Source of the DNA: Sipunculus nudus
Lineage: Eukaryota; Annelida; Sipuncula; Golfingiida; Sipunculidae
DNA: 64,000 bases
Direction of reading: 5' to 3'
Assembly (NCBI GenBank): GCA_026874595.1
Contig: CM049307.1
Location: 72,640,643 to 72,704,642, forward strand
Shown: one piece after another, positions 1 to 41,040 of the stretch
How positions within the stretch are numbered: the stretch's first letter is position 1
Layout of the letters: the number at the start of each line of letters is the position of its first letter
Translations under genes and position numbers: made by a program
The notes under the pieces: model-generated
The model's input: only the letters and a program-made list of their open reading frames with translations
What the model was told of the DNA's origin: nothing
Database searches by the model: none

Positions 1-280
1 TTTCTCGCATGAGGAATTGTATTTCATCCAGCTCATCAGCAAAGCGACAGGTGTAGTCGTAGAGGGTAGAGCGGAAGCCTTCCAAGGTGGCCAGCTTGAG
101 CTGGAGGTGGTAACGGTGTGTCTTGGTTTGGGTTGCAACTGCACGCTGGTATCGCACCATTGTGGCATTGAAGATGTTGTTGGTGTGCAGCAGCTGCTTG
201 CAGGCAAACTGGAACCTGCTGTGGGTGGCATCAAACTGCTTCTGCAGGGCAACCACATCCAAACAGAGTTGAGTATCCAT
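1..280 (-). CDS. Arrayed small-protein gene, copy 0 (3' end outside window)
   Basis: Start codon at 278-280. The last 32 nt of the reading frame and its 3' hairpins lie left of the window. The visible part encodes the consensus protein described under copy 1, with Asp at residue 82. Confidence 0.85.
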   Translation of the reverse strand, partial: MDTQLCLDVVALQKQFDATHSRFQFACKQLLHTNNIFNATMVRYQRAVATQTKTHRYHLQLKLATLEGFRSTLYDYTCRFADELDEIQFLMRE

Positions 281-1551
281 GATAACAAAGCGGTGTAGGC
301 AGTTAACTGGTTTCACCTCAAAGGTTGAAAGAGATTTGATCAGTTTACCATCATGCTTCCCTTTTATAATAAAACTCAGCAGTGCTGCCATCAGTACTCA
401 GTTCAGTGTCACATGCCAAATTGAATGGAGAAGTGATGAGACCAGATCCTGCAAGCTCTGATTACTCAGTGCTTGGCATGCTTGAGTGAGCACTGTCACT
501 TGTCTGAGTACTTCCTTGGGTACTGCTACTCAACATGCATCAGTGAACAAGATGTCTGTATGTTTATGCTTGATTTCTGTGTTACTCCAGTTTTTGATTA
601 TACCTTGTAAACTGTTTGTTTACAGTGTTTGTTGTTGGACTTGGGGGTGAACATTCTTGGGTTTCTGAGTACTTGATGACCCCCATGCATGAGTGAACAT
701 GGTCACTGTTTGTTCACACTGGACAGTTGTTTGACTCTGGTTTGTAAACAATCCAAGTAAATTGTTTATTTGCAAGATTTATTATGTGAATAATTGTTGG
801 AGCCACTGGGTACTTGTTACTCATCAGGTGTCAGTGATGATGGATATTGTTTTTCTGTCCTCGTAAGTGATGTGTTGTAAATTGTTTATTTTTCTAATTT
901 TAATGTTGATACTTGTTTGAGTACTTGTTTTGGCCTGTGAGTACTTGTTACTCATCATGAGTCACTGACCATGTCCCCTTTTTGTATGTATGATGGCTGT
1001 TCTATTACTGTCAATGATTATTAATTGTAAAATGTTGATTTACAGGTTTTATTGTGGATACTTGTTTGAGTTCTTGTTTGGACCCCTGAGTACTTGCTAC
1101 TCATTATGCATCAGGGATCATTGTTCATGTTTTGTGGCTGCTTTATTCTAGTGAGTAATAATGTGTTGTAAATTGTTTATTGACAAGATTTTTTGCTTGT
1201 AGCTTGTGTGAGTACTTGTTTTGGTGATGAGTACCTGTTAACCATGCATTATTGTAAATGGTCATTTCACCCTTCCATTTTTTTATATGGTTTGATTTAA
1301 AATTTCCCCAGAATGTCATATTATCTGACATACAAAGCATCTGAAAGCTGAAGAAGGTATGAAAGGGCCTGCCAGTTGATACATGTACGAGGGTTGAAAG
1401 AATAAAGGTCCATTTCATGTTTTGTGTATTGAAAATGTGCATTGAATATAGAGAATGTGAAATGATGGGGGGAAAAGTGGAAAAGATCTTGTTTTGACTT
1501 TTAAGAGGGAAGGTGATTGTGAAAGCAACAATTGGATCTGGAAGAAGTGCT

Positions 1552-1567
1552 GGCTCTGACAAGAGCC
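1552..1567 (-). promoter_or_regulatory. Histone-type 3' stem-loop (copy 1; same place in every unit)
   Basis: On the minus strand this reads GGCTCT-TGTC-AGAGCC: a perfect 6-bp stem with GG at the base and a 4-nt loop, preceded by ACAAA, 62 nt after the stop codon. The metazoan histone mRNA 3' signal is GGYYYU-UHUH-ARRRCC with an A-rich 5' flank, usually 30-70 nt after the stop. Loop positions 1 and 3 are U, as required; position 2 is G, which the consensus disfavours. The base after the stem is A, as expected, but no purine-rich downstream element is visible. In each complete unit the element lies 62-77 nt below the coordinate of the stop. Two copies (18,150s and 33,090s) carry a change in the closing pair that turns U-A into a U-G wobble and so keeps the stem. 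Confidence 0.65.
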
Positions 1568-1584
1568 TTTGTCTTGTGAGACTG

Positions 1585-1618
1585 CAGGTCCTTGCCTGTC
1601 ATCAAGGCAAGAGACCTG
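1585..1618 (-). promoter_or_regulatory. Long 3' UTR hairpin between stop codon and histone-type loop
   Basis: Arms CAGGTC-T-CTTGCC and GGCAAG-GACCTG pair over 12 bp with one bulged base and a 9-nt loop. It lies 10 nt after the stop codon on the minus strand and repeats in every unit. About a third of copies change one base in the distal arm (plus strand AGG to AAG), which gives a G-U wobble in the RNA, so pairing is kept. The role is unknown; it could be a second protein site or a terminator-like structure. Confidence 0.6.
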
Positions 1619-1628
1619 AAGGATGACT

Positions 1629-1940
1629 TCAGAAGTGAGTCATGTCATTGGTGCCTGCTATTTCTCGCATGAGGAATTGTATTTCATCCAGCTCATGAGC
1701 AAAGCGACAGGTGTAGTCGTAGAGGGTAGAGCGGAAGCCTTCCAAGGTGGCCAGCTTGAGCTGGAGGTGGTAACGGTGTGTCTTGGTTTGGGTTGCAACT
1801 GCACGCTGGTATCGCACCATTGTGGCATTGAAGATGTTGTTGGTGTGCAGCAGCTGCTTGCAGGCAAACTGGAACCTGCTGTGGGTGGCATCAAACTGCT
1901 TCTGCAGGGCAACCACATCCAAACAGAGTTGAGTATCCAT
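1629..1940 (-). CDS. Arrayed small-protein gene, copy 1 (103 aa, unknown function)
   Basis: I do not recognise the protein. It is 103 residues, near-neutral, with Cys at 6, 27 and 78, five His, and an almost unbroken helical, heptad-like pattern from about residue 8 to 94, suggesting a coiled coil or helical bundle. No signal peptide, membrane segment or histone fold is evident. Coding is supported by strongly biased codons (CTG, CAG, AAG, GCC, ACC, TTC), unlike the AT-rich spacer. The start at 1938-1940 is chosen over an in-frame ATG at 2049-2051 (140 aa) because the TATA box and initiator lie between them, and because this ATG has A at -3 and G at +4. No intron is needed. This copy carries His at 82 instead of Asp; copies 2, 3, 6, 8 and 9 share this. 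The 3' end has the histone-type loop. Confidence 0.85.
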   Translation of the reverse strand: MDTQLCLDVVALQKQFDATHSRFQFACKQLLHTNNIFNATMVRYQRAVATQTKTHRYHLQLKLATLEGFRSTLYDYTCRFAHELDEIQFLMREIAGTNDMTHF

Positions 1941-1992
1941 GATAACAAAGCGGTGTAGGCAGTTAACTGGTTTCACCTCAAAGGTTGAAAGA

Positions 1993-2028
1993 GATTTGAT
2001 CAGTTTACCATCATGCTTCCCTTTTATA
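1993..2028 (-). promoter_or_regulatory. Core promoter: TATA box and initiator (copy 1; same in all units)
   Basis: TATAAAAG lies at 2028-2021 on the minus strand. TCAAATC, a perfect YYANWYY initiator, lies at 1999-1993, putting the predicted +1 A at 1997 with the TATA box starting at -31. The predicted leader is 57 nt. Copies 2, 8 and 9 have TTAAATC, which still fits the initiator. The TATA box lies inside the longer 140-codon open frame, arguing that the frame's first 37 codons are not translated. Confidence 0.75.
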
Positions 2029-2139
2029 ATAAAACTCAGCAGTGCTGCCATCAGTACTCAGTTCAGTGTCACATGCCAAATTGAATGGAGAAGTGATGAG
2101 ACCAGATCCTGCAAGCTCTGATTACTCAGTGCTTGGCAT

Positions 2140-2925
2140 GCTTGAGTGAGCACTGTCACTTGTCTGAGTACTTCCTTGGGTACTGCTACTCAACATGCAT
2201 CAGTGAACAAGATGTCTGTATGTTTATGCCTGATTTCTGTTTTACTCCAGTTTGTGATTATACCTTGTAAACTGTTTGTTTACAGTGTTTGTTGTTGGAC
2301 TTGGGGGTGAACATTCTTTGGTTTCTGAGTACTTGATGACCCTCATGCATCAGTGAACACGGTCACTGTTTGTTCACACTGGACAGTTGTTTGACTCTGG
2401 TTAGTAAAAAATCCAAGTAAATTGTTTATTTGCAAGATTTATTATGTGAATAATTGTTGGAGCCACTGGGTACTTGTTACTCATCAGGTGTCAGTGATGA
2501 TGGATATTGTTTTTCTGTCCTCGTAAGTGATGTGTTGTAAATTGTTTATTTTTCTAATTTTAATGTTGATACTTGTTTGAGTACTTGTTTTGGCCTGTGA
2601 GTACTTGTTACTCATCATGAGTCACTGACCATGTCCCCTTTTTGTATGTATGATGGCTGTTCTATTACTGTCAATGATTATTAATTGTAAAATGTTGATT
2701 TACAGGTTTTATTGTGGATACTTGTTTGAGTTCTTGTTTGGACCCCTGAGTACTTGCTACTCATTATGCATCAGGGATCATTGTTCATGTTTTGTGGCTG
2801 CTTTATTCTAGTGAGTAATAATGTGTTGTAAATTGTTTATTGACAAGATTTTTTGCTTGTAGCTTGTGTGAGTACTTGTTTTGGTGATGAGTACTTGTTA
2901 ACCATGCATTATTGTAAATGGTCAT
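2140..2925. repeat. Spacer subrepeats, about six degraded 130-163-bp monomers (shown for copy 1)
   Basis: The spacer repeats the order TTGTAAATTGTTTATTT - ACTTGTTTGAGTACTTG - TGAGTACTTGTTACTCA - ATGCATCAGTGA. In the leftmost unit the GTACTTG anchors fall at about 508, 671, 811, 941, 1091 and 1222, a spacing of 131-163 bp. Several monomers keep a perfect TGAGTA-N5-TACTCA dyad (938-954, 1087-1103). The same block recurs in every unit. Such subrepeats resemble the enhancer or spacer-promoter repeats of rDNA spacers in layout; their role here is unknown. Confidence 0.7.
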
Positions 2926-3288
2926 TTCACCCTTCCATTTGTTTATATGGTTTGATTCAAAATTTCCCCAGAATGTCATATTATCTGACATACAAGGCAT
3001 CTGAAAGCTGAAGAAGGTATGAAAGGGCCTGCCAGTTGATACATGTGAGAGGGTTGAAAGAATAAAGGTCCATTTCATGTTTTGTGTTCTGAAAATGTGC
3101 ATTGAATATAGAGAATGTGAATTGATGGGGGGAAAAGTGGAAAAGATCTTGTTTTGACTTTTAAGAGGGAAGGTGATTGTGAAAGCAACAATTGGATCTG
3201 GAAGAAGTGCTGGCTCTGACAAGAGCCTTTGTCTTGTGAGACTGCAGGTCCTTGCCTGTCATCAAGGCAAGAGACCTGAAGGATGACT

Positions 3289-3600
3289 TCAGAAGTGAGT
3301 CATGTCATTGGTGCCTGCTATTTCTCGCATGAGGAATTGTATTTCATCCAGCTCATGAGCAAAGCGACAGGTGTAGTCGTAGAGGGTAGAGCGGAAGCCT
3401 TCCAAGGTGGCCAGCTTGAGCTGGAGGTGGTAACGGTGTGTCTTGGTTTGGGTTGCAACTGCACGCTGGTATCGCACCATTGTGGCATTGAAGATGTTGT
3501 TGGTGTGCAGCAGCTGCTTGCAGGCAAACTGGTACCTGCTGTGGGTGGCATCAAACTGCTTCTGCAGGGCAACCACATCCAAACAGAGTTGAGTATCCAT
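3289..3600 (-). CDS. Arrayed small-protein gene, copy 2
   Basis: As copy 1, with Tyr at 23 and His at 82. The spacer above it carries markers shared with copies 8 and 9 (CTTGTTCGAG; GTGAGAAATA). Confidence 0.85.
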   Translation of the reverse strand: MDTQLCLDVVALQKQFDATHSRYQFACKQLLHTNNIFNATMVRYQRAVATQTKTHRYHLQLKLATLEGFRSTLYDYTCRFAHELDEIQFLMREIAGTNDMTHF

Positions 3601-4948
3601 GATAACAAAGCGGTGTAGGCAGTTAACTGGTTTCACCTCAAAGGTTGAAAGAGATTTAATCAGTTTACCATCATGCTTCCCTTTTATAATAAAACTCAGC
3701 AGTGCTGCCATCTGTACTCAGTTCAGTGTCACATGCCAAATTGAATGGAGAAGTGATGAGACCAGATCCTGCAAGCTCTGATTACTCAGTGCTTGGCATG
3801 CTTGAGTGAGCACTGTCACTTGTCTGAGTACTTCCTTGGGTACTGCTACTCAAGATGCATCAGTGAACAAGATGTCTGTATGTTTATGCTTGATTTCTGT
3901 GTTACTCCAGTTTGTGATTATACCTTGTAAACTGTTTGTTTACAGTGTTTGTTGTTGGACTTGGGGGTGAACATTTTTGGGTTTCTGAGTACTTGATGAC
4001 CCCCATGCATGAGTGAACATGGTCACTGTTTGTTCACACTGGACAGTTGTTTGACTCTGGTTTGTAAACAATCCAAGTAAATTGTTTATTTGCAAGATTT
4101 ATTATGTGAATAATTGTTGGAGCCACTGGGTACTTGTTACTCATCAGGTGTCAGTGATGATGGATATTGTTTTTCAGTCCTCGTAAGTGATGTGTTGTAA
4201 ATTGTTTATTTTTCTAATTTTAATGTTGATACTTGTTTGAGTACTTGTTTTGGCCTGTGAGTACTTGTTACTCATCATGAGTCACTGACCATGTCCCCTT
4301 TTTGTATGTATGATGGCTGTTCTATTACTGTCAATGATTATTAATTGTAAAATGTTGATTTACAGGTTTTATTGTGGATACTTGTTCGAGTTCTTGTTTG
4401 GACCCCTGAGTACTTGCTACTCATTATGCATCAGGGATCATTGTTCATGTTTTGTGGCTGCTTTATTCTAGTGAGAAATAATGTGTTGTAAATTGTTTAT
4501 TGACAAGATTTTATGCTTGTAGCTTGTGTGAGTACTTGTTTTGGTGATGAGTACCTGTTAACCATGCATTATTGTAAATGGTCATTTCACCCTTCCATTT
4601 TTTTATATGGTTTGATTTAAAATTTCCCCAGAATGTCATATTATCTGACATACAAGGCATCTGAAAGCTGAAGAAGGTATGAAAGGGCCTGCCAGTTGAT
4701 ACATGTGAGAGGGTTGAAAGAATAAAGGTCCATTTCATGTTTTGTGTATTGAAAATGTGCATTGAATATAGAGAATGTGAAATGATGGGGGGAAAAGTGG
4801 AAAAGATCTTGTTTTGACTTTTAAGAGGGAAGGTGATTGTGAAAGCAACAATTGGATCTGGAAGAAGTGCTGGCTCTGACAAGAGCCTTTGTCTTGTGAG
4901 ACTGCAGGTCCTTGCCTGTCATCAAGGCAAGAGACCTGAAGGATGACT

Positions 4949-5260
4949 TCAGAAGTGAGTCATGTCATTGGTGCCTGCTATTTCTCGCATGAGGAATTGT
5001 ATTTCATCCAGCTCATGAGCAAAGCGACAGGTGTAGTCGTAGAGGGTAGAGCGGAAGCCTTCCAAGGTGGCCAGCTTGAGCTGGAGGTGGTAACGGTGTG
5101 TCTTGGTTTGGGTTGCAACTGCACGCTGGTATCGCACCATTGTGGCATTGAAGATGTTGTTGGTGTGCAGCAGCTGCTTGCAGGCAAACTGGAACCTGCT
5201 GTGGGTGGCATCAAACTGCTTCTGCAGGGCAACCACATCCAAACAGAGTTGAGTATCCAT
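4949..5260 (-). CDS. Arrayed small-protein gene, copy 3
   Basis: Same protein as copy 1 (His 82). Its upstream spacer has TTTATTCC and GTTGCTGGATTTGG, shared with copies 5 and 10. Confidence 0.85.
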   Translation of the reverse strand: MDTQLCLDVVALQKQFDATHSRFQFACKQLLHTNNIFNATMVRYQRAVATQTKTHRYHLQLKLATLEGFRSTLYDYTCRFAHELDEIQFLMREIAGTNDMTHF

Positions 5261-6608
5261 GATAACAAAGCGGTGTAGGCAGTTAACTGGTTTCACCTCA
5301 AAGGTTGAAAGAGATTTGATCAGTTTACCATCATGCTTCCCTTTTATAATAAAACTCAGCAGTGCTGCCATCAGTACTCAGTTCAGTGTCACATGCCAAA
5401 TTGAATGGAGAAGTGATGAGACCAGATCCTGCAAGCTCTGATTACTCAGTGCTTGGCATGCTTGAGTGAGCACTGTCACTTGTCTGAGTACTTCCTTGGG
5501 TACTGCTACTCAAGATGCATCAGTGAACAAGATGTCTGTATGTTTATTCCTGATTTCTGTTTTACTCCAGTTTGTGATTATACCTTGTAAACTGTTTGTT
5601 TACAGTGTTTGTTGCTGGATTTGGGGGTGAACATTCTTTGGTTTCTGAGTACTTGATGACCCTCATGCATGAGTGAACACGGTCACTGTTTGTTCACACT
5701 GGACAGTTGTTTGACTCTGGTTAGTAAACAATCCAAGTAAATTGTTTATTTGCAAGATTTATTATGTGAATAATTGTTGGAGCCACTGGGTACTTGTTAC
5801 TCATCAGGTGTCAGTGATGATGGATATTGTTTTTCTGTCCTTGTAAGTGATGTGTTGTAAATTGTTTATTTTTCTAATTTTAATGTTGATACTTGTTTGA
5901 GTACTTGTTTTGGCCTGTGAGTACTTGCTACTCATCATGAGTCACTGACCATGTCCCCTTTTTGTGTGTATGATGGCTGTTCTATTACTGTTAATGATTA
6001 TTAATTGTAAAATGTTTATTTACAGGTTTTATTGTGGATACTTGTTTGAGTTCTTGTTTGGACCCCTGAGTACTTGCTACTCATTATGCATCAGGGATCA
6101 TTGTTCATGTTTTGTGGCTGCTTTATTCTAGTGAGTAATAATGTGTTGTAAATTGTTTATTGACAAGATTTTTTGCTTGTAGCTTGTGTGAGTACTTGTT
6201 TTGGTGATGAGTACTTGTTAACCATGCATTATTGTAAATGGTCATTTCACCCTTCCATTTGTTTATATGGTTTGATTTAAAATTTCCCCAGAATGTCATA
6301 TTATCTGACATACAAGGCATCTGAAAGCTGAAGAAGGTATGAAAGGGCCTGCCAGTTGATACATGTGAGAGGGTTGAAAGAATAAAGGTCCATTTCATGT
6401 TTTGTGTACTGAAAATGTGCATTGAATATAGAGAATGTGAATTGATGGGGGGAAAAGTGGAAAAGATCTTGTTTTGACTTTTAAGAGGGAAGGTGATTGT
6501 GAAAGCAACAATTGGATCTGGAAGAAGTGCTGGCTCTGACAAGAGCCTTTGTCTTGTGAGACTGCAAGTCCTTGCCTGTCATCAAGGCAAGAGACCTGAA
6601 GGATGACT

Positions 6609-6920
6609 TCAGAAGTGAGTCATGTCATTGGTGCCTGCTATTTCTCGCATGAGGAATTGTATTTCATCCAGCTCATCAGCAAAGCGACAGGTGTAGTCGT
6701 AGAGGGTAGAGCGGAAGCCTTCCAAGGTGGCCAGCTTGAGCTGGAGGTGGTAACGGTGTGTCTTGGTTTGGGTTGCAACTGCACGCTGGTATCGCACCAT
6801 TGTGGCATTGAAGATGTTGTTGGTGTGCAGCAGCTGCTTGCAGGCAAACTGGAACCTGCTGTGGGTGGCATCAAACTGCTTCTGCAGGGCAACCACATCC
6901 AAACAGAGTTGAGTAGCCAT
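6609..6920 (-). CDS. Arrayed small-protein gene, copy 4
   Basis: Residue 2 is Ala instead of Asp; otherwise the consensus with Asp 82. The G after the start codon is kept. Confidence 0.85.
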   Translation of the reverse strand: MATQLCLDVVALQKQFDATHSRFQFACKQLLHTNNIFNATMVRYQRAVATQTKTHRYHLQLKLATLEGFRSTLYDYTCRFADELDEIQFLMREIAGTNDMTHF

Positions 6921-8268
6921 GATAACAAAGCGGTGTAGGCAGTTAACTGGTTTCACCTCAAAGGTTGAAAGAGATTTGATCAGTTTACCATCATGCTTCC
7001 CTTTTATAATAAAACTCAGCAGTGCTGCCATCAGTACTCAGTTCAGTGTCACATGCCAAATTGAATGGAGAAGTGATGAGACCAGATCCTGCAAGCTCTG
7101 ATTACTCAGTGCTTGGCATGCTTGAGTGAGCACTGTCACTTGTCTGAGTACTTCCTTGGGTACTGCTACTCAAGATGCATCAGTGAACAAGATGTCTGTA
7201 TGTTTATGCTTGATTTCTGTGTTACTCCAGTTTTTGATTATACCTTGTAAACTGTTTGTTTACAGTGTTTGTTGTTGGACTTGGGGGTGAACATTCTTGG
7301 GTTTCTGAGTACTTGATGACCCCCATGCATGAGTGAACACGGTCACTGTTTGTTCACACTGGACAGTTGTTTGACTCTGGTTTGTAAACAATCCAAGTAA
7401 ATTGTTTATTTGCAAGATTTATTATGTGAATAATTGTTGGAGCCACTGGGTACTTGTTACTCATCAGGTGTCAGTGATGATGGATATTGTTTTTCTGTCC
7501 TCGTAAGTGATGTGTTGTAAATTGTTTATTTTTCTAATTTTAATGTTGATACTTGTTTGAGTACTTGTTTTGGCCTGTGAGTACTTGCTACTCATCATGA
7601 GTCACTGACCATGTCCCCTTTTTGTATGTATGATGGCTGTTCTATTACTGTCAATGATTATTAATTGTAAAATGTTGATTTACAGGTTTTATTGTGGATA
7701 CTTGTTTGAGTTCTTGTTTGGACCCCTGAGTACTTGCTACTCATTATGCATCAGGGATCATTGTTCATGTTTTGTGGCTGCTTTATTCTAGTGAGTAATA
7801 ATGTGTTGTAAATTGTTTATTGACAAGATTTTTTGCTTGTAGCTTGTGTGAGTACTTGTTTTGGTGATGAGTACCTGTTAACCATGCATTATTGTAAATG
7901 GTCATTTCACCCTTCCATTTTTTTATATGGTTTGATTTAAAATTTCCCCAGAATGTCATATTATCTGACATACAAAGCATCTGAAAGCTGAAGAAGGTAT
8001 GAAAGGGCCTGCCAGTTGATACATGTACGAGGGTTGAAAGAATAAAGGTCCATTTCATGTTTTGTGTATTGAAAATGTGCATTGAATATAGAGAATGTGA
8101 AATGATGGGGGGAAAAGTGGAAAAGATCTTGTTTTGACTTTTAAGAGGGAAGGTGATTGTGAAAGCAACAATTGGATCTGGAAGAAGTGCTGGCTCTGAC
8201 AAGAGCCTTTGTCTTGTGAGACTGCAGGTCCTTGCCTGTCATCAAGGCAAGAGACCTGAAGGATGACT

Positions 8269-8580
8269 TCAGAAGTGAGTCATGTCATTGGTGCCTGCTA
8301 TTTCTCGCATGAGGAATTGTATTTCATCCAGCTCATCAGCAAAGCGACAGGTGTAGTCGTAGAGGGTAGAGCGGAAGCCTTCCAAGGTGGCCAGCTTGAG
8401 CTGGAGGTGGTAACGGTGTGTCTTGGTTTGGGTTGCAACTGCACGCTGGTATCGCACCATTGTGGCATTGAAGATGTTGTTGGTGTGCAGCAGCTGCTTG
8501 CAGGCAAACTGGAACCTGCTGTGGGTGGCATCAAACTGCTTCTGCAGGGCAACCACATCCAAACAGAGTTGAGTATCCAT
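8269..8580 (-). CDS. Arrayed small-protein gene, copy 5
   Basis: Consensus protein (Asp 82). The spacer is nearly the same as that of copies 3 and 10. Confidence 0.85.
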   Translation of the reverse strand: MDTQLCLDVVALQKQFDATHSRFQFACKQLLHTNNIFNATMVRYQRAVATQTKTHRYHLQLKLATLEGFRSTLYDYTCRFADELDEIQFLMREIAGTNDMTHF

Positions 8581-9928
8581 GATAACAAAGCGGTGTAGGC
8601 AGTTAACTGGTTTCACCTCAAAGGTTGAAAGAGATTTGATCAGTTTACCATCATGCTTCCCTTTTATAATAAAACTCAGCAGTGCTGCCATCAGTACTCA
8701 GTTCAGTGTCACATGCCAAATTGAATGGAGAAGTGATGAGACCAGATCCTGCAAGCTCTGATTACTCAGTGCTTGGCATGCTTGAGTGAGCACTGTCACT
8801 TGTCTGAGTACTTCCTTGGGTACTGCTACTCAAGATGCATCAGTGAACAAGATGTCTGTATGTTTATTCCTGATTTCTGTTTTACTCCAGTTTGTGATTA
8901 TACCTTGTAAACTGTTTGTTTACAGTGTTTGTTGCTGGATTTGGGGGTGAACATTCTTTGGTTTCTGAGTACTTGATGACCCTCATGCATGAGTGAACAC
9001 GGTCACTGTTTGTTCACACTGGACAGTTGTTTGACTCTGGTTAGTAAACAATCCAAGTAAATTGTTTATTTGCAAGATTTATTATGTGAATAATTGTTGG
9101 AGCCACTGGGTACTTGTTACTCATCAGGTGTCAGTGATGATGGATATTGTTTTTCTGTCCTTGTAAGTGATGTGTTGTAAATTGTTTATTTTTCTAATTT
9201 TAATGTTGATACTTGTTTGAGTACTTGTTTTGGCCTGTGAGTACTTGCTACTCATCATGAGTCACTGACCATGTCCCCTTTTTGTGTGTATGATGGCTGT
9301 TCTATTACTGTTAATGATTATTAATTGTAAAATGTTTATTTACAGGTTTTATTGTGGATACTTGTTTGAGTTCTTGTTTGGACCCCTGAGTACTTGCTAC
9401 TCATTATGCATCAGGGATCATTGTTCATGTTTTGTGGCTGCTTTATTCTAGTGAGTAATAATGTGTTGTAAATTGTTTATTGACAAGATTTTTTGCTTGT
9501 AGCTTGTGTGAGTACTTGTTTTGGTGATGAGTACTTGTTAACCATGCATTATTGTAAATGGTCATTTCACCCTTCCATTTGTTTATATGGTTTGATTTAA
9601 AATTTCCCCAGAATGTCATATTATCTGACATACAAGGCATCTGAAAGCTGAAGAAGGTATGAAAGGGCCTGCCAGTTGATACATGTGAGAGGGTTGAAAG
9701 AATAAAGGTCCATTTCATGTTTTGTGTACTGAAAATGTGCATTGAATATAGAGAATGTGAATTGATGGGGGGAAAAATGGAAAAGATCTTGTTTTGACTT
9801 TTAAGAGGGAAGGTGATTGTGAAAGCAACAATTGGATCTGGAAGAAGTGCTGGCTCTGACAAGAGCCTTTGTCTTGTGAGACTGCAAGTCCTTGCCTGTC
9901 ATCAAGGCAAGAGACCTGAAGGATGACT

Positions 9929-10240
9929 TCAGAAGTGAGTCATGTCATTGGTGCCTGCTATTTCTCGCATGAGGAATTGTATTTCATCCAGCTCATGAGC
10001 AAAGCGACAGGTGTAGTCGTAGAGGGTAGAGCGGAAGCCTTCCAAGGTGGCCAGCTTGAGCTGGAGGTGGTAACGGTGTGTCTTGGTTTGGGTTGCAACT
10101 GCACGCTGGTATCGCACCATTGTGGCATTGAAGATGTTGTTGGTGTGCAGCAGCTGCTTGCAGGCAAACTGGAACCTGCTGTGGGTGGCATCAAACTGCT
10201 TCTGCAGGGCAACCACATCCAAACAGAGTTGAGTATCCAT
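9929..10240 (-). CDS. Arrayed small-protein gene, copy 6
   Basis: His 82 form. The spacer closely resembles that of copy 0, 9,960 bp away. Confidence 0.85.
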   Translation of the reverse strand: MDTQLCLDVVALQKQFDATHSRFQFACKQLLHTNNIFNATMVRYQRAVATQTKTHRYHLQLKLATLEGFRSTLYDYTCRFAHELDEIQFLMREIAGTNDMTHF

Positions 10241-11588
10241 GATAACAAAGCGGTGTAGGCAGTTAACTGGTTTCACCTCAAAGGTTGAAAGAGATTTGAT
10301 CAGTTTACCATCATGCTTCCCTTTTATAATAAAACTCAGCAGTGCTGCCATCAGTACTCAGTTCAGTGTCACATGCCAAATTGAATGGAGAAGTGATGAG
10401 ACCAGATCCTGCAAGCTCTGATTACTCAGTGCTTGGCATGCTTGAGTGAGCACTGTCACTTGTCTGAGTACTTCCTTGGGTACTGCTACTCAAGATGCAT
10501 CAGTGAACAAGATGTCTGTATGTTTATGCTTGATTTCTGTGTTACTCCAGTTTTTGATTATACCTTGTAAACTGTTTGTTTACAGTGTTTGTTGTTGGAC
10601 TTGGGGGTGAACATTCTTGGGTTTCTGAGTACTTGATGACCCCCATGCATGAGTGAACATGGTCACTGTTTGTTCACACTGGACAGTTGTTTGACTCTGG
10701 TTTGTAAACAATCCAAGTAAATTGTTTATTTGCAAGATTTATTATGTGAATAATTGTTGGAGCCACTGGGTACTTGTTACTCATCAGGTGTCAGTGATGA
10801 TGGATATTGTTTTTCTGTCCTCGTAAGTGATGTGTTGTAAATTGTTTATTTTTCTAATTTTAATGTTGATACTTGTTTGAGTACTTGTTTTGGCCTGTGA
10901 GTACTTGTTACTCATCATGAGTCACTGACCATGTCCCCTTTTTGTATGTATGATGGCTGTTCTATTACTGTCAATGATTATTAATTGTAAAATGTTGATT
11001 TACAGGTTTTATTGTGGATACTTGTTTGAGTTCTTGTTTGGACCCCTGAGTACTTGCTACTCATTATGCATCAGGGATCATTGTTCATGTTTTGTGGCTG
11101 CTTTATTCTAGTGAGTAATAATGTGTTGTAAATTGTTTATTGACAAGATTTTTTGCTTGTAGCTTGTGTGAGTACTTGTTTTGGTGATGAGTACCTGTTA
11201 ACCATGCATTATTGTAAATGGTCATTTCACCCTTCCATTTTTTTATATGGTTTGATTTAAAATTTCCCCAGAATGTCATATTATCTGACATACAAAGCAT
11301 CTGAAAGCTGAAGAAGGTATGAAAGGGCCTGCCAGTTGATACATGTGAGAGGGTTGAAAGAATAAAGGTCCATTTCATGTTTTGTGTATTGAAAATGTGC
11401 ATTGAATATAGAGAATGTGAAATGATGGGGGGAAAAGTGGAAAAGATCTTGTTTTGACTTTTAAGAGGGAAGGTGATTGTGAAAGCAACAATTGGATCTG
11501 GAAGAAGTGCTGGCTCTGACAAGAGCCTTTGTCTTGTGAGACTGCAGGTCCTTGCCTGTCATCAAGGCAAGAGACCTGAAGGATGACT

Positions 11589-11900
11589 TCAGAAGTGAGT
11601 CATGTCATTGGTGCCTGCTATTTCTCGCATGAGGAATTGTATTTCATCCAGCTCATCAGCAAAGCGACAGGTGTAGTCGTAGAGGGTAGAGCGGAAGCCT
11701 TCCAAGGTGGCCAGCTTGAGCTGGAGGTGGTAACGGTGTGTCTTGGTTTGGGTTGCAACTGCACGCTGGTATCGCACCATTGTGGCATTGAAGATGTTGT
11801 TGGTGTGCAGCAGCTGCTTGCAGGCAAACTGGAACCTGCTGTGGGTGGCATCAAACTGCTTCTGCAGGGCAACCACATCCAAACAGAGTTGAGTATCCAT
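11589..11900 (-). CDS. Arrayed small-protein gene, copy 7
   Basis: Asp 82 form. Its spacer shares the rare TTAGTAAAAAATCC block with copy 1 exactly 9,960 bp away, although the coding parts differ at codon 82. Confidence 0.85.
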   Translation of the reverse strand: MDTQLCLDVVALQKQFDATHSRFQFACKQLLHTNNIFNATMVRYQRAVATQTKTHRYHLQLKLATLEGFRSTLYDYTCRFADELDEIQFLMREIAGTNDMTHF

Positions 11901-13248
11901 GATAACAAAGCGGTGTAGGCAGTTAACTGGTTTCACCTCAAAGGTTGAAAGAGATTTGATCAGTTTACCATCATGCTTCCCTTTTATAATAAAACTCAGC
12001 AGTGCTGCCATCAGTACTCAGTTCAGTGTCACATGCCAAATTGAATGGAGAAGTGATGAGACCAGATCCTGCAAGCTCTGATTACTCAGTGCTTGGCATG
12101 CTTGAGTGAGCACTGTCACTTGTCTGAGTACTTCCTTGGGTACTGCTACTCAACATGCATCAGTGAACAAGATGTCTGTATGTTTATGCCTGATTTCTGT
12201 TTTACTCCAGTTTGTGATTATACCTTGTAAACTGTTTGTTTACAGTGTTTGTTGTTGGACTTGGGGGTGAACATTCTTTGGTTTCTGAGTACTTGATGAC
12301 CCTCATGCATCAGTGAACACGGTCACTGTTTGTTCACACTGGACAGTTGTTTGACTCTGGTTAGTAAAAAATCCAAGTAAATTGTTTATTTGCAAGATTT
12401 ATTATGTGAATAATTGTTGGAGCCACTGGGTACTTGTTACTCATCAGGTGTCAGTGATGATGGATATTGTTTTTCTGTCCTCGTAAGTGATGTGTTGTAA
12501 ATTGTTTATTTTTCTAATTTTAATGTTGATACTTGTTTGAGTACTTGTTTTGGCCTGTGAGTACTTGTTACTCATCATGAGTCACTGACCATGTCCCCTT
12601 TTTGTATGTATGATGGCTGTTCTATTACTGTCAATGATTATTAATTGTAAAATGTTGATTTACAGGTTTTATTGTGGATACTTGTTTGAGTTCTTGTTTG
12701 GACCCCTGAGTACTTGCTACTCATTATGCATCAGGGATCATTGTTCATGTTTTGTGGCTGCTTTATTCTAGTGAGTAATAATGTGTTGTAAATTGTTTAT
12801 TGACAAGATTTTTTGCTTGTAGCTTGTGTGAGTACTTGTTTTGGTGATGAGTACTTGTTAACCATGCATTATTGTAAATGGTCATTTCACCCTTCCATTT
12901 GTTTATATGGTTTGATTCAAAATTTCCCCAGAATGTCATATTATCTGACATACAAGGCATCTGAAAGCTGAAGAAGGTATGAAAGGGCCTGCCAGTTGAT
13001 ACATGTGAGAGGGTTGAAAGAATAAAGGTCCATTTCATGTTTTGTGTTCTGAAAATGTGCATTGAATATAGAGAATGTGAATTGATGGGGGGAAAAGTGG
13101 AAAAGATCTTGTTTTGACTTTTAAGAGGGAAGGTGATTGTGAAAGCAACAATTGGATCTGGAAGAAGTGCTGGCTCTGACAAGAGCCTTTGTCTTGTGAG
13201 ACTGCAGGTCCTTGCCTGTCATCAAGGCAAGAGACCTGAAGGATGACT

Positions 13249-13560
13249 TCAGAAGTGAGTCATGTCATTGGTGCCTGCTATTTCTCGCATGAGGAATTGT
13301 ATTTCATCCAGCTCATGAGCAAAGCGACAGGTGTAGTCGTAGAGGGTAGAGCGGAAGCCTTCCAAGGTGGCCAGCTTGAGCTGGAGGTGGTAACGGTGTG
13401 TCTTGGTTTGGGTTGCAACTGCACGCTGGTATCGCACCATTGTGGCATTGAAGATGTTGTTGGTGTGCAGCAGCTGCTTGCAGGCAAACTGGAACCTGCT
13501 GTGGGTGGCATCAAACTGCTTCTGCAGGGCAACCACATCCAAACAGAGTTGAGTATCCAT
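13249..13560 (-). CDS. Arrayed small-protein gene, copy 8
   Basis: His 82 form. The spacer markers match copies 2 and 9. Confidence 0.85.
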   Translation of the reverse strand: MDTQLCLDVVALQKQFDATHSRFQFACKQLLHTNNIFNATMVRYQRAVATQTKTHRYHLQLKLATLEGFRSTLYDYTCRFAHELDEIQFLMREIAGTNDMTHF

Positions 13561-14908
13561 GATAACAAAGCGGTGTAGGCAGTTAACTGGTTTCACCTCA
13601 AAGGTTGAAAGAGATTTAATCAGTTTACCATCATGCTTCCCTTTTATAATAAAACTCAGCAGTGCTGCCATCTGTACTCAGTTCAGTGTCACATGCCAAA
13701 TTGAATGGAGAAGTGATGAGACCAGATCCTGCAAGCTCTGATTACTCAGTGCTTGGCATGCTTGAGTGAGCACTGTCACTTGTCTGAGTACTTCCTTGGG
13801 TACTGCTACTCAAGATGCATCAGTGAACAAGATGTCTGTATGTTTATGCTTGATTTCTGTGTTACTCCAGTTTGTGATTATACCTTGTAAACTGTTTGTT
13901 TACAGTGTTTGTTGTTGGACTTGGGGGTGAACATTTTTGGGTTTCTGAGTACTTGATGACCCCCATGCATGAGTGAACATGGTCACTGTTTGTTCACACT
14001 GGACAGTTGTTTGACTCTGGTTTGTAAACAATCCAAGTAAATTGTTTATTTGCAAGATTTATTATGTGAATAATTGTTGGAGCCACTGGGTACTTGTTAC
14101 TCATCAGGTGTCAGTGATGATGGATATTGTTTTTCAGTCCTCGTAAGTGATGTGTTGTAAATTGTTTATTTTTCTAATTTTAATGTTGATACTTGTTTGA
14201 GTACTTGTTTTGGCCTGTGAGTACTTGTTACTCATCATGAGTCACTGACCATGTCCCCTTTTTGTATGTATGATGGCTGTTCTATTACTGTCAATGATTA
14301 TTAATTGTAAAATGTTGATTTACAGGTTTTATTGTGGATACTTGTTCGAGTTCTTGTTTGGACCCCTGAGTACTTGCTACTCATTATGCATCAGGGATCA
14401 TTGTTCATGTTTTGTGGCTGCTTTATTCTAGTGAGAAATAATGTGTTGTAAATTGTTTATTGACAAGATTTTATGCTTGTAGCTTGTGTGAGTACTTGTT
14501 TTGGTGATGAGTACTTGTTAACCATGCATTATTGTAAATGGTCATTTCACCCTTCCATTTGTTTATATGGTTTGATTCAAAATTTCCCCAGAATGTCATA
14601 TTATCTGACATACAAGGCATCTGAAAGCTGAAGAAGGTATGAAAGGGCCTGCCAGTTGATACATGTGAGAGGGTTGAAAGAATAAAGGTCCATTTCATGT
14701 TTTGTGTTCTGAAAATGTGCATTGAATATAGAGAATGTGAATTGATGGGGGGAAAAGTGGAAAAGATCTTGTTTTGACTTTTAAGAGGGAAGGTGATTGT
14801 GAAAGCAACAATTGGATCTGGAAGAAGTGCTGGCTCTGACAAGAGCCTTTGTCTTGTGAGACTGCAGGTCCTTGCCTGTCATCAAGGCAAGAGACCTGAA
14901 GGATGACT

Positions 14909-15220
14909 TCAGAAGTGAGTCATGTCATTGGTGCCTGCTATTTCTCGCATGAGGAATTGTATTTCATCCAGCTCATGAGCAAAGCGACAGGTGTAGTCGT
15001 AGAGGGTAGAGCGGAAGCCTTCCAAGGTGGCCAGCTTGAGCTGGAGGTGGTAACGGTGTGTCTTGGTTTGGGTTGCAACTGCACGCTGGTATCGCACCAT
15101 TGTGGCATTGAAGATGTTGTTGGTGTGCAGCAGCTGCTTGCAGGCAAACTGGAACCTGCTGTGGGTGGCATCAAACTGCTTCTGCAGGGCAACCACATCC
15201 AAACAGAGTTGAGTATCCAT
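14909..15220 (-). CDS. Arrayed small-protein gene, copy 9
   Basis: His 82 form. This unit looks like a direct duplicate of copy 8, an extra unit compared with the copy 1-3 block. Confidence 0.85.
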   Translation of the reverse strand: MDTQLCLDVVALQKQFDATHSRFQFACKQLLHTNNIFNATMVRYQRAVATQTKTHRYHLQLKLATLEGFRSTLYDYTCRFAHELDEIQFLMREIAGTNDMTHF

Positions 15221-16568
15221 GATAACAAAGCGGTGTAGGCAGTTAACTGGTTTCACCTCAAAGGTTGAAAGAGATTTAATCAGTTTACCATCATGCTTCC
15301 CTTTTATAATAAAACTCAGCAGTGCTGCCATCTGTACTCAGTTCAGTGTCACATGCCAAATTGAATGGAGAAGTGATGAGACCAGATCCTGCAAGCTCTG
15401 ATTACTCAGTGCTTGGCATGCTTGAGTGAGCACTGTCACTTGTCTGAGTACTTCCTTGGGTACTGCTACTCAAGATGCATCAGTGAACAAGATGTCTGTA
15501 TGTTTATGCTTGATTTCTGTGTTACTCCAGTTTGTGATTATACCTTGTAAACTGTTTGTTTACAGTGTTTGTTGTTGGACTTGGGGGTGAACATTTTTGG
15601 GTTTCTGAGTACTTGATGACCCCCATGCATGAGTGAACATGGTCACTGTTTGTTCACACTGGACAGTTGTTTGACTCTGGTTTGTAAACAATCCAAGTAA
15701 ATTGTTTATTTGCAAGATTTATTATGTGAATAATTGTTGGAGCCACTGGGTACTTGTTACTCATCAGGTGTCAGTGATGATGGATATTGTTTTTCAGTCC
15801 TCGTAAGTGATGTGTTGTAAATTGTTTATTTTTCTAATTTTAATGTTGATACTTGTTTGAGTACTTGTTTTGGCCTGTGAGTACTTGTTACTCATCATGA
15901 GTCACTGACCATGTCCCCTTTTTGTATGTATGATGGCTGTTCTATTACTGTCAATGATTATTAATTGTAAAATGTTGATTTACAGGTTTTATTGTGGATA
16001 CTTGTTCGAGTTCTTGTTTGGACCCCTGAGTACTTGCTACTCATTATGCATCAGGGATCATTGTTCATGTTTTGTGGCTGCTTTATTCTAGTGAGAAATA
16101 ATGTGTTGTAAATTGTTTATTGACAAGATTTTATGCTTGTAGCTTGTGTGAGTACTTGTTTTGGTGATGAGTACCTGTTAACCATGCATTATTGTAAATG
16201 GTCATTTCACCCTTCCATTTTTTTATATGGTTTGATTTAAAATTTCCCCAGAATGTCATATTATCTGACATACAAGGCATCTGAAAGCTGAAGAAGGTAT
16301 GAAAGGGCCTGCCAGTTGATACATGTGAGAGGGTTGAAAGAATAAAGGTCCATTTCATGTTTTGTGTATTGAAAATGTGCATTGAATATAGAGAATGTGA
16401 AATGATGGGGGGAAAAGTGGAAAAGATCTTGTTTTGACTTTTAAGAGGGAAGGTGATTGTGAAAGCAACAATTGGATCTGGAAGAAGTGCTGGCTCTGAC
16501 AAGAGCCTTTGTCTTGTGAGACTGCAGGTCCTTGCCTGTCATCAAGGCAAGAGACCTGAAGGATGACT

Positions 16569-16880
16569 TCAGAAGTGAGTCATGTCATTGGTGCCTGCTA
16601 TTTCTCGCATGAGGAATTGTATTTCATCCAGCTCATCAGCAAAGCGACAGGTGTAGTCGTAGAGGGTAGAGCGGAAGCCTTCCAAGGTGGCCAGCTTGAG
16701 CTGGAGGTGGTAACGGTGTGTCTTGGTTTGGGTTGCAACTGCACGCTGGTATCGCACCATTGTGGCATTGAAGATGTTGTTGGTGTGCAGCAGCTGCTTG
16801 CAGGCAAACTGGAACCTGCTGTGGGTGGCATCAAACTGCTTCTGCAGGGCAACCACATCCAAACAGAGTTGAGTATCCAT
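16569..16880 (-). CDS. Arrayed small-protein gene, copy 10
   Basis: Consensus protein. The spacer matches copies 3 and 5. Confidence 0.85.
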   Translation of the reverse strand: MDTQLCLDVVALQKQFDATHSRFQFACKQLLHTNNIFNATMVRYQRAVATQTKTHRYHLQLKLATLEGFRSTLYDYTCRFADELDEIQFLMREIAGTNDMTHF

Positions 16881-18228
16881 GATAACAAAGCGGTGTAGGC
16901 AGTTAACTGGTTTCACCTCAAAGGTTGAAAGAGATTTGATCAGTTTACCATCATGCTTCCCTTTTATAATAAAACTCAGCAGTGCTGCCATCAGTACTCA
17001 GTTCAGTGTCACATGCCAAATTGAATGGAGAAGTGATGAGACCAGATCCTGCAAGCTCTGATTACTCAGTGCTTGGCATGCTTGAGTGAGCACTGTCACT
17101 TGTCTGAGTACTTCCTTGGGTACTGCTACTCAAGATGCATCAGTGAACAAGATGTCTGTATGTTTATTCCTGATTTCTGTTTTACTCCAGTTTGTGATTA
17201 TACCTTGTAAACTGTTTGTTTACAGTGTTTGTTGCTGGATTTGGGGGTGAACATTCTTTGGTTTCTGAGTACTTGATGACCCTCATGCATGAGTGAACAC
17301 GGTCACTGTTTGTTCACACTGGACAGTTGTTTGACTCTGGTTAGTAAACAATCCAAGTAAATTGTTTATTTGCAAGATTTATTATGTGAATAATTGTTGG
17401 AGCCACTGGGTACTTGTTACTCATCAGGTGTCAGTGATGATGGATATTGTTTTTCTGTCCTTGTAAGTGATGTGTTGTAAATTGTTTATTTTTCTAATTT
17501 TAATGTTGATACTTGTTTGAGTACTTGTTTTGGCCTGTGAGTACTTGCTACTCATCATGAGTCACTGACCATGTCCCCTTTTTGTGTGTATGATGGCTGT
17601 TCTATTACTGTTAATGATTATTAATTGTAAAATGTTTATTTACAGGTTTTATTGTGGATACTTGTTTGAGTTCTTGTTTGGACCCCTGAGTACTTGCTAC
17701 TCATTATGCATCAGGGATCATTGTTCATGTTTTGTGGCTGCTTTATTCTAGTGAGTAATAATGTGTTGTAAATTGTTTATTGACAAGATTTTTTGCTTGT
17801 AGCTTGTGTGAGTACTTGTTTTGGTGATGAGTACTTGTTAACCATGCATTATTGTAAATGGTCATTTCACCCTTCCATTTGTTTATATGGTTTGATTTAA
17901 AATTTCCCCAGAATGTCATATTATCTGACATACAAGGCATCTGAAAGCTGAAGAAGGTATGAAAGGGCCTGCCAGTTGATACATGTGAGAGGGTTGAAAG
18001 AATAAAGGTCCATTTCATGTTTTGTGTACTGAAAATGTGCATTGAATATAGAGAATGTGAATTGATGGGGGGAAAAGTGGAAAAGATCTTGTTTTGACTT
18101 TTAAGAGGGAAGGTGATTGTGAAAGCAACAATTGGATCTGGAAGAAGTGCTGGCTCCGACAAGAGCCTTTGTCTTGTGAGACTGCAAGTCCTTGCCTGTC
18201 ATCAAGGCAAGAGACCTGAAGGATGACT

Positions 18229-18540
18229 TCAGAAGTGAGTCATGTCATTGGTGCCTGCTATTTCTCGCATGAGGAATTGTATTTCATCCAGCTCATCAGC
18301 AAAGCGACAGGTGTAGTCGTAGAGGGTAGAGCGGAAGCCTTCCAAGGTGGCCAGCTTGAGCTGGAGGTGGTAACGGTGTGTCTTGGTTTGGGTTGCAACT
18401 GCACGCTGGTATCGCACCATTGTGGCATTGAAGATGTTGTTGGTGTGCAGCAGCTGCTTGCAGGCAAACTGGAACCTGCTGTGGGTGGCATCAAACTGCT
18501 TCTGCAGGGCAACCACATCCAAACAGAGTTGAGTATCCAT
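18229..18540 (-). CDS. Arrayed small-protein gene, copy 11
   Basis: Consensus protein. The histone-type loop below it has the wobble variant in its closing pair. Its spacer switches variant family at about 19,035. Confidence 0.85.
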   Translation of the reverse strand: MDTQLCLDVVALQKQFDATHSRFQFACKQLLHTNNIFNATMVRYQRAVATQTKTHRYHLQLKLATLEGFRSTLYDYTCRFADELDEIQFLMREIAGTNDMTHF

Positions 18541-19888
18541 GATAACAAAGCGGTGTAGGCAGTTAACTGGTTTCACCTCAAAGGTTGAAAGAGATTTGAT
18601 CAGTTTACCATCATGCTTCCCTTTTATAATAAAACTCAGCAGTGCTGCCATCAGTACTCAGTTCAGTGTCACATGCCAAATTGAATGGAGAAGTGATGAG
18701 ACCAGATCCTGCAAGCTCTGATTACTCAGTGCTTGGCATGCTTGAGTGAGCACTGTCACTTGTCTGAGTACTTCCTTGGGTACTGCTACTCAAGATGCAT
18801 CAGTGAACAAGATGTCTGTATGTTTATGCTTGATTTCTGTGTTACTCCAGTTTTTGATTATACCTTGTAAACTGTTTGTTTACAGTGTTTGTTGTTGGAC
18901 TTGGGGGTGAACATTCTTGGGTTTCTGAGTACTTGATGACCCCCATGCATGAGTGAACATGGTCACTGTTTGTTCACACTGGACAGTTGTTTGACTCTGG
19001 TTTGTAAACAATCCAAGTAAATTGTTTATTTGCAAAATTTATTTTATGAATAATTATTGGAGCCGCTGGGTACTTGTTACTCATCAGGTGTCAGTGATGA
19101 TGGATATTGTTTTTCTGTTGTCGTAAGTGGTGTGTTGTAAATTGTTTATTTTTCCAATTTTAATGTTGACACTTGTTTGAGTACTTGTTTTGGCCTGTGA
19201 GTACTTGTTACTCATCATGAGTCACTGACCATGTCCCCTTTTTGTGTGTATGATGGCTGTTCTATTACTGTTAATGATTATTAATTGTAAAATGTTTATT
19301 TACAGGTTTTATTGTGGATACTTGTTTGAGTTCTTGTTTGGACCCCTGAGTACTTGCTACTCATTATGCATCAGGGATCATTGTTCATGTTTTGTGGCTG
19401 CTTTATTCTAGTGAGTAATAATGTGTTGTTAATTGTTTATTGACAAGATTTTTTGCTTGTAGCTTGTGTGAGTACTTGTTTTGGTGATGAGTACTTGTTA
19501 ACCATGCATTATTATAAATGGTCATTTCACCCTTCCATTTTTTTATATGGTTTGATTTAAAATTTCCCCAGAATGTCATATCATCTGACATACAAGGCAT
19601 CTGAAAGCTGAAGAAGGTATGAAAGGGCCTGCCAGTTGATACATGTGAGAGGGTTGAAAGAATAAAGGTCCATTTCATGTTTTGTGGACTGAAAATGTGC
19701 ATTGAATATAGAGAATGTGAATTGATGGGGGGAAAAGTGGAAAAGATCTTGTTTTGACTTTTAAGAGGGAAGGTGATTGTGAAAGCAACAATTGGATCTG
19801 GAAGAAGTGCTGGCTCTGACAAGAGCCTTTGTCTTGTGAGACTGCAGGTCCTTGCCTGTCATCAAGGCAAGAGACCTGAAGGATGACT

Positions 19889-20200
19889 TCAGAAGTGAGT
19901 CATGTCATTGGTGCCTGCTATTTCTCGCATGAGGAATTGTATTTCATCCAGCTCATCAGCAAAGCGACAGGTGTAGTCGTAGAGGGTAGTGCTGAAGCCT
20001 TCCAAGGTGGCCAGCTTGAGCTGGAGGTGGTAACGGTGTGTCTTGGTTTGGGTTGCAACTGCACGCTGGTATCGCACCATAGTGGCATTGAAGATGTTGT
20101 TGGTGTGCAGCAGCTGCTTGCAGGCAAACTGGAACCTGCTGTGGGTGGCATCAAACTGCTTCTGCAGGGCAACCACATCCAAACAGAGTTGAGTATCCAT
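19889..20200 (-). CDS. Arrayed small-protein gene, copy 12
   Basis: Ser 70 and Thr 71 replace Arg-Ser; copies 15 and 18 share this. Confidence 0.85.
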   Translation of the reverse strand: MDTQLCLDVVALQKQFDATHSRFQFACKQLLHTNNIFNATMVRYQRAVATQTKTHRYHLQLKLATLEGFSTTLYDYTCRFADELDEIQFLMREIAGTNDMTHF

Positions 20201-21549
20201 GATAACAAAGCGGTGTAGGCAGTTTACTGGTTTCACCTCAAAGGTTGAAAGAGATTTGATCAGTTTACCATCATGCTTCCCTTTTATAATAAAACTCAGC
20301 AGTGCTGCCATCAGTACTCAGTTCAGTGTCACATGCCAAATTGAATGGAGAAGTGATGAGACCAGATGCTGCAAGCTCTGATTACTCAGTGCTTGGCATG
20401 CTTGAGTGAGCACTGTCACTTGTCTGAGTACTTCCTTGGGTACTGCTACTCAAGATGCATCAGTGAACAAGATGTCTGTATGTTTATGCCTGATTTCTGT
20501 TTTACTCCAGTTTGTGATTATACCTTGTAAACTGTTTGTTTACAGTGTTTGTTGCTGGACTTGGGGGTGAACATTCTTGGGTTTCTGAGTACTTGATGAC
20601 CCTCATGCATCAGTGAACACTGTCACTGTTTGTTCACACTGGACAGTTGTTTGACTCTGGTTAGTAAACAATCCAAGTAAATTGTTTATTTACAAGATTT
20701 ATTATGTGAATAATTGTTGGAGCTACTGGGTACTTGTTACTCATCAGGTGTCAGTGATGATGGATATTGTTTTTCTGTCCTCATAAGTGATGTGTTGTAA
20801 ATTGTTTTTTTTTACTAATTTTAATGTTGATACTTGTTTGAGTACTTGTTTTGGCCTGTGAGTACTTGCTACTCATCATGAGTCACTGACCATGTCCCCT
20901 TTTTGTGTGTATGATGGCTGTTCTATTACTGTCAATGATTATCAATTGTAAAATGTTTATTTACAGGTTTTATTGTGGATACTTGTTTGAGTTCTTGTTT
21001 GGACCCCTGAGTACTTGCTACTCATTATGCATCAGGGATCATTGTTCATGTTTTGTGGCTGCTTTATTCTAGTGAGTAATAATGTGTTGTAAATTGTTTA
21101 TTGACAAGATTTTTTGCTTGTAGCTTGTGTGAGTACTTGTTTTGGTGATGAGTACTTGTTAACCATGCATTATTGTAAATGGTCATTTCACCCTTCCATT
21201 TGTTTATATGTTATGATTTAAAATTTCCCCAGAATGCCATATTATCTGACATACAAGGCATCTGAAAGCTGAAGAAGGTATGAAAGGGCCTGCCAGTTGA
21301 TACATGTGAGAGGGTTGAAAGAATAAAGGTCCATTTCATGTTTTGTGTACTGAAAATGTGCATTGAATATAGAGAATGTGAATTGATGGGGGGAAAAGTG
21401 GAAAAGATCTTGTTTTGACTTTTAAGAGGGAAGGTGATTGTGAAAGCAACAATTGGATCTGGAAGAAGTGCTGGCTCTGACAAGAGCCTTTGTCTTGTGA
21501 GACTGCAAGTCCTTGCCTGTCATCAAGGCAAGAGACCTGAAGGATGACT

Positions 21550-21861
21550 TCAGAAGTGAGTCATGTCATTGGTGCCTGCTATTTCTCGCATGAGGAATTG
21601 TATTTCATCCAGCTCATCAGCAAAGCGACAGGTGTAGTCGTAGAGGGTAGAGCGGAAGCCTTCCAAGGTGGCCAGCTTGAGCTGGAGGTGGTAACGGTGT
21701 GTCTTGGTTTGGGTTGCAACTGCACGCTGGTATCGCACCATTGTGGCATTGAAGATGTTGTTGGTGTGCAGCAGCTGCTTGCAGGCAAACTGGAACCTGC
21801 TGTGGGTGGCATCAAACTGCTTCTGCAGGGCAACCACATCCAAACAGAGTTGAGTATCCAT
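21550..21861 (-). CDS. Arrayed small-protein gene, copy 13
   Basis: Consensus protein. The gene copy is nearly identical to copy 16, 4,980 bp away. Confidence 0.85.
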   Translation of the reverse strand: MDTQLCLDVVALQKQFDATHSRFQFACKQLLHTNNIFNATMVRYQRAVATQTKTHRYHLQLKLATLEGFRSTLYDYTCRFADELDEIQFLMREIAGTNDMTHF

Positions 21862-41030: not shown

Positions 41031-41040
41031 TTTGTTTATT

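Follow-up and report, generated by a model that had tools for sequence, protein, structure and literature searches.

The array described here raises the question of whether a gene that does not encode a histone can produce an mRNA with the 3'-terminal stem-loop that textbooks reserve for histone messages. The array lies in the window, that is, the entire 64,000-nucleotide stretch of Sipunculus nudus DNA that was analyzed, and was mapped with BLAST, using one unit and the gene block as queries. It consists of 1,660-bp units on the minus strand: positions 1..37834 hold 22 complete genes (gene blocks 1500-36980) plus one truncated by the window start, and the array continues with two complete genes at 42585..45207, beyond a retroelement insertion. 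The 24 complete units (the 25th is the one truncated by the window start) are 97.7-100% identical across the 621-bp gene block. The retroelement that splits the array (38128-42252) contains a reverse transcriptase ORF (39393-41030), and ORF 38128-39234 resembles, by eye, a tyrosine recombinase, which suggests an element of the DIRS type; a Ty3/gypsy-like element occupies 48883-52694, with reverse transcriptase, RNase H and integrase domains in ORF 49623-52067.

The original prediction for this locus described a compact gene with a TATA box at -31, a leader of about 57 nt and 103 codons with C/G-rich third positions, and the first unit of the window agrees with this description. The coding sequence of the 103-residue helical protein, which has paralogs across the genome, spans 1629..1940 on the minus strand (stop codon at 1631-1629), with a GC content of 0.65 at third codon positions versus 0.44 at positions 1 and 2. 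The TATA box TATAAAAG (2021..2028, read 2028-2021 on the minus strand) is located at -88 from the ATG, and a start about 31 nt past it leaves a leader of about 57 nt. A 140-amino-acid ORF was rejected as the product because it begins upstream of the TATA box, which lies inside it. The gene is short, intronless and tandemly repeated, with the reading frame and the hairpin contiguous.

The predicted hairpin, GGCTCT-TGTC-AGAGCC, is found at 1552..1567 (minus strand, 1567-1552), directly after CAAA at 1571-1568 and 61 nt past the stop codon, where 62 nt had been claimed; it is perfect in 22 of the 24 complete units, the altered ones being those at 18100 and 33040. The accompanying claim that a downstream element is missing does not hold. 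The stem is followed on the minus strand by the 12-nt spacer AGCACTTCTTCC (1540..1551), of the same length as in the H4, H2B and H2A genes of this genome, and by the element AGATCCAATT (1530..1539), the histone H2B form of which is AGATCTGAGC; thus, AGATCC at 1539-1534 begins 12 nt past the stem, where H2B of the same genome has AGATCT, one base away. Neither AATAAA nor ATTAAA is present within about 430 nt past the stop codon of this unit, which agrees with, and does not prove, an mRNA lacking poly(A). The 3' UTR also contains a second and stronger hairpin (1586..1617, minus strand, 1617-1586) that is placed between the stop codon and the histone-type hairpin and consists of 12 bp with one bulge; its folding energy is -17.7 kcal/mol, none of 200 shuffles was equally good, and across the 24 units, 3 sites in 34 nt vary. 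This 12-bp bulged hairpin is seen at the equivalent place in other window units, too.

The protein itself does not resemble a histone. Pfam searches with the window protein, 17 aligned family members and the proteins of two other arrays described below gave no histone match, and no Pfam family of any kind scored above the cut-off for the window protein, the aligned members or the other array proteins. There was no significant sequence match in the PDB (the best PDB-profile E-value was 0.096), and a Foldseek search with the predicted model returned nothing at E <= 0.001. A Pfam match to DPCD (E 0.026-0.055) and the other sub-threshold Pfam, weak PDB and Foldseek matches were dismissed as generic helical similarity. 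The single-sequence AlphaFold2 model of the window protein alone (pLDDT 81, pTM 0.55) consists of two long helices, residues 2-48 and 53-100; the protein is near neutral, with a pI of 7.8, and its relatives range from 4.6 to 9.9. Hence, the profile and structure searches that had been proposed for the 103-residue protein led to no known family, and its description as a neutral, helical, non-histone protein stands.

A search of the 1.43-Gb genome (153 contigs) revealed matches to this protein in at least 108 places, with 150 of 172 candidates scored. The array of the window extends over C2:72.58-72.69 Mb and contains at least 60 copies, well in excess of the at least 25 originally predicted. 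A second array, at C3:79.21-79.26 Mb, comprises 26 copies, four of them with a stop, and there are 21 dispersed copies with 30-49% identity, both counts again referring to the 150 of 172 candidates scored; a single truncated copy is located at C3:79.15 Mb. Hairpin searches uncovered two further non-histone arrays. On C11 (63.39-63.48 Mb), 46 hairpins are accompanied by the downstream element, and the protein of the one unit read is, by profile comparison, a clear relative (hhalign 94%, E 1.4e-7); a single gene at C4:65.31 Mb groups with this type. The other, at C2:30.70-30.77 Mb, has at least 46 hairpins among the matches listed, and the similarity of its protein (hhalign 25%, E 0.00075) is only suggestive of a possible relationship.

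Is the gene still maintained as a gene? In ten paralog pairs compared over the last 100-105 codons, dN/dS was 0.12-0.49 (two pairs consist of nearly identical sequences, and the top value involves the copy at C3:50.93 that lacks the hairpin), and by this measure the paralogs are under purifying selection. Inside the window array, the amino acid is altered at 11 of the 14 variable codons, so purifying selection or recent constraint is not visible there. This observation, together with the stop found in 2 of the 60 copies, the homogenized spacer and the broken frame in 4 of the 17 units read from the C2:30.7-Mb array, is what would be expected if the window array were a decaying or non-coding satellite of a once functional gene. 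However, in the other 58 of the 60 copies, the matching region is free of stops, the hairpin and the downstream element vary at just 1 of 46 sites among the 24 units, and the paralogs appear constrained, so we consider a satellite very unlikely.

The hairpin is not a peculiarity of the window array. Outside it, we read 26 paralogous copies in 20 loci, some of them near-identical, and in 23 of these, a hairpin follows the stop codon at 22-74 nt, with one G-U pair in three cases; the copies without it are C2:23.76, C3:50.93 and the truncated C3:79.15. In the histone genes of the same genome, the stem is separated from the downstream motif by 12 nt in H4, H2B and H2A (ATATCT, AGATCT and AGTTCT, respectively) and by 13 nt in H3 and H1 (AGTTCT and AGATCT, with TGATCT in one H1 gene). 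When 22 family 3' ends were aligned with those of H2B, H2A and H4, the region from the hairpin through the element required no internal gaps, and each position of the AGATCTA consensus was occupied by the consensus base in 18-22 of the 22 family rows. The element of the family thus lies at the distance typical of the organism's own histones.

SLBP recognition follows a rule for the loop, namely, uridines at loop positions 1 and 3. In the family, position 3 is U in all 22 rows and position 1 is U in 21, the remaining one having C, as does H3 here; the family hairpin is accordingly of the histone type, with 6 bp, a four-base loop, U1 and U3, soon after the stop. The G at loop position 2 had been raised as an objection to such a reading, and G was indeed seen only in the window array and one other family gene, but both the family and true histones vary at this position (A in H2B, C in H2A, T in H4, H3 and H1), and to that extent the objection loses its force. 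The stem is paired in all 132 family cells, and the outer pair changes from G-C to U-A in 3 of the 22 rows, perhaps in a single event. Nine stem cells in the alignment are doubly changed, a level of covariation that was not reached in any of 500 shuffles; six of the nine come from the three rows of histones, which leaves little covariation to the family itself. A family gene at C4:46074300-46077700 carries two successive GGCTCTTTTCAGAGCC hairpins 30 nt apart, with AGATCT after the second only. A separate array of six H1 genes (C2:27134000-27150500) has the exact GGCTCTTTTCAGAGCC hairpin that is common to family members, and could be the source of the 3' end of the family.

The resemblance was quantified with a covariance model trained solely on the H4, H2B and H2A genes of this genome and scanned over 28 loci and the window. 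True H3 scored 35.9 bits and true H1 23.7-24.5 bits, and the hairpin-bearing family members scored 14.5-40.2 bits, with all other matches in those loci at or below 12.7; the weakest family scores were those of C2:61.84 (14.5 bits, E 0.86) and the C11 array unit (18.0 bits, E 0.11). The three hairpin-less copies gave no match up to E 10. All 24 units of the window were detected, 22 at 21.2 bits and two at 16.3, the next match being at 11.8; the score of the window array is thus below that of real H1. The Rfam Histone3 model (RF00032) aligned end to end in the window at 21.7 bits, and none of its matches there reached the gathering score of 34. In a control scan of three histone and four family loci, this model gave 33.3 bits for H4, 30.6-31.8 for H1, 26.2 for H3, 22.2 for H2A and 21.5 for H2B, compared to 32.6 for C2:61.85, 31.8 for C2:41.94 and 22.0 for the C11 array, with no match in the C3 array at E up to 0.5. 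Because the true histones scanned also remained under 34 bits, the missing gathering score says little, and the window is on a level with true H2B.

It could be argued that 6-bp stems with four-base loops are generic and that the hairpin is a signal unrelated to SLBP, acting in DNA or in another RNA context, such as a Helitron end or a terminator. The distance from the stop, the loop uridines, the flank and the element all match the local histones, however, and a model trained on histones detects the family hairpins, so this explanation seems to us barely credible. The central claim of the original prediction, namely, that a non-histone gene in a tandem array has the 3'-end signals typical of replication-dependent histone genes, is strongly supported at the level of sequence: diverged paralogs carry the signals as well, their register is that of the organism's own histones, and the model built from three of these detects them.

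How specific are these signals in the genome? The pattern GGCTCTTNTCAGAGCC has 165 matches in 1.43 Gb (the first 100 of these were listed) versus none for the reversed-pattern control, so the matches are not due to chance. With A or T in the loop, 56 matches were obtained: six at H1 genes, 38 in the C11 array, 11 at dispersed family genes, one gene holding two, and one, at C13:67.40 Mb, with no recognizable gene or downstream element. Requiring a GCTCTT-type stem, 12 nt and AGATCT yielded 59 matches in 1.43 Gb and none in the control, with 13 at family genes that were read and 46 in the C11 array, where one unit was read. The version with the histone stem had 111 matches (control, 0); among the 100 listed, 96 repeat H2A/H2B strings at histone clusters, as judged by string and place, and the others are one H2B gene, which was read, and three dispersed sites. 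In these searches, the combination of signals is rare and occurs mainly, but not exclusively, on histones and on the family.

The three dispersed sites with a hairpin and downstream element are C5:80122610-80123350, C14:32843380-32844120 and C1:110778400-110779170. At one of them, the signals follow an esterase-like ORF (GDSL, E 0.0011, below the cut-off), for which there are 29 further matches, mostly diverged or partial; these sites possibly belong to a mobile element whose 3' end is of the histone type. Such sites would lend some color to the idea that the entire family derives from a virus or mobile element with 3' ends of the histone type. Against this stand the separate loci of the family members, with their own promoters and apparent purifying selection, and the lack of a relative in viral contigs in a single-protein query, which detects close relatives only; we regard this origin as highly improbable.

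A more substantial rival is that the family captured a histone 3' end and its mRNAs are now mainly polyadenylated, with the hairpin retained as an element of stability or translation. AATAAA occurs within 300 nt of the stop in 12 of the 26 copies read, 10 of which are among the 23 that bear the hairpin, so dual 3' ends are conceivable in the latter, and histone genes of C. elegans combine a hairpin with a polyadenylation signal (PMC1924863). By contrast, the downstream element, which is expected to serve cleavage only, is in register in 22 family rows, and the first window unit, as noted, is free of canonical signals near its stop. We deem this explanation unlikely. Both intact hairpin-less copies have AATAAA at 108-136 nt past the stop. 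One of them, the 47% identical C2:23.76 copy (C2:23762000-23765500), combines AATAAA at 136 nt with the absence of the hairpin and of TACTCA in the 300 bp before the ATG, and is possibly a polyadenylated relative outside the regulon.

With respect to the machinery, the genome encodes SLBP: its RNA-binding domain is found in two exons at C1:29.647 Mb, with 60.7 and 30.5 bits against a Pfam cut-off of 27. For U7 snRNA, the Rfam U7 model gave only chance-level matches in the genome, and the control matched 12 of 14 prokaryote genomes. The candidate TAGATCTGAATTTTGCAAATTTTTCTAG was rejected as a dispersed AT-rich repeat with no hairpin after the Sm-like site (ten of its 84 matches were inspected, and nine were the AT-rich repeat). 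Six other pattern matches, including five that were set against six control matches, yielded no convincing U7 either. The U7 gene is the main gap at the sequence level.

The promoters of the family present a different picture from the 3' ends. The hexamer TACTCA/TGAGTA is present within 300 bp before the ATG in 15 of 19 family genes, versus a mean of 5.2 in first-order simulations; it is absent from this interval in C4:57.9, the C3 array, the C2:30.7 array and C2:23.76. In the window, the spacer at 2035..3150 has 14 such sites, a density of 12.5 per kb compared to a background of 0.44-0.49 per kb. At the sampled histone loci, the density is 0.15-0.60 per kb, so the motif is not enriched. A TATA-like sequence, TATA[AT][AG], lies within 150 bp upstream of 18 of 23 family starts. 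The enrichment of TACTCA in the family and not at histone loci implies that the 3'-end signals are shared, whereas the promoter signals are largely the family's own. The 2035-3150 spacer and other spacers are made up of internal repeats that have diverged and are rich in GAGTACTTG/TTACTCATCATG, and they have an enhancer-like appearance.

We are fairly confident that the window contains part of one array of a non-histone gene family, the pre-mRNAs of which would be cut by the histone 3'-end machinery. Under this scenario, SLBP would bind the hairpin, and the AGATCTA-type element, 12 nt past the stem, would base-pair with the U7 snRNP. Histone pre-mRNA is cleaved 5 nt past the stem, at a CA (PMC6303110), and the family transcripts would probably be cut about 4-5 nt past the stem, near the CA at 1549-1548, to yield a short, intronless mRNA without poly(A), the abundance of which should track SLBP, in S phase or in a maternal store. 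Transcription would proceed from TATA promoters with clustered TACTCA sites, such that promoter timing would be particular to the family and the 3' end would follow the timing of histones. The protein, with its approximately 100 residues, may form a helical hairpin that probably self-associates and is, conceivably, needed in bulk in rapidly dividing cells, for example, those of cleavage-stage embryos or the germ line.

More broadly, and with somewhat less assurance, we favor the view that the SLBP/U7 pathway has been taken over by a non-histone regulon of about 200 genes, comprising some 20 dispersed genes and four arrays with about 26-60 copies each, one of which is only tentatively related; the mRNAs of the regulon would then be made without poly(A) and in synchrony with histones, under a largely private TACTCA promoter code. 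If this is true, a conserved non-histone family with complete cis signals breaks the histone-only rule, and the histone 3'-end pathway can be borrowed for other products, and the protein would be one that is needed in large amounts together with histones. These genes would then be largely missed in poly(A)-selected RNA data, and some twenty diverged natural substrates could help to define the requirements of SLBP and U7. Among the papers listed in our searches of the open-access literature, there was no case of a non-histone gene with a histone-type 3' end, and novelty is claimed within those bounds only.

Among known systems, the closest is provided by the H1, H2A, H2B, H3 and H4 genes of the same genome, with which the family shares a short intronless ORF, tandem arrays, a 16-nt hairpin soon after the stop with an A-rich flank before it, and the element at 12-13 nt. 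Unlike these genes, the family encodes a protein that is not a histone and has no Pfam family, and unlike the histone loci sampled, it has an enriched TACTCA promoter motif; the family stem is GGCTCT, as opposed to GGCCTT, AGCCCT or GGCCCT in histones, although the H1 stem is identical to that of the family. Dual 3' ends are reportedly a feature of the histone gene H2A.X. The C. elegans histone genes (PMC1924863) resemble some family members in the combination of a hairpin with a possible polyadenylation signal, but their products are histones, and canonical signals are absent from the roughly 430 nt that follow the stop codon of the first window unit. Multi-copy arrays expressed in early embryos, such as the Obox clusters, are similar in another respect, namely, the many short, near-identical copies. 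The mRNAs of Obox-type arrays are polyadenylated, and their proteins are unrelated to the window family.
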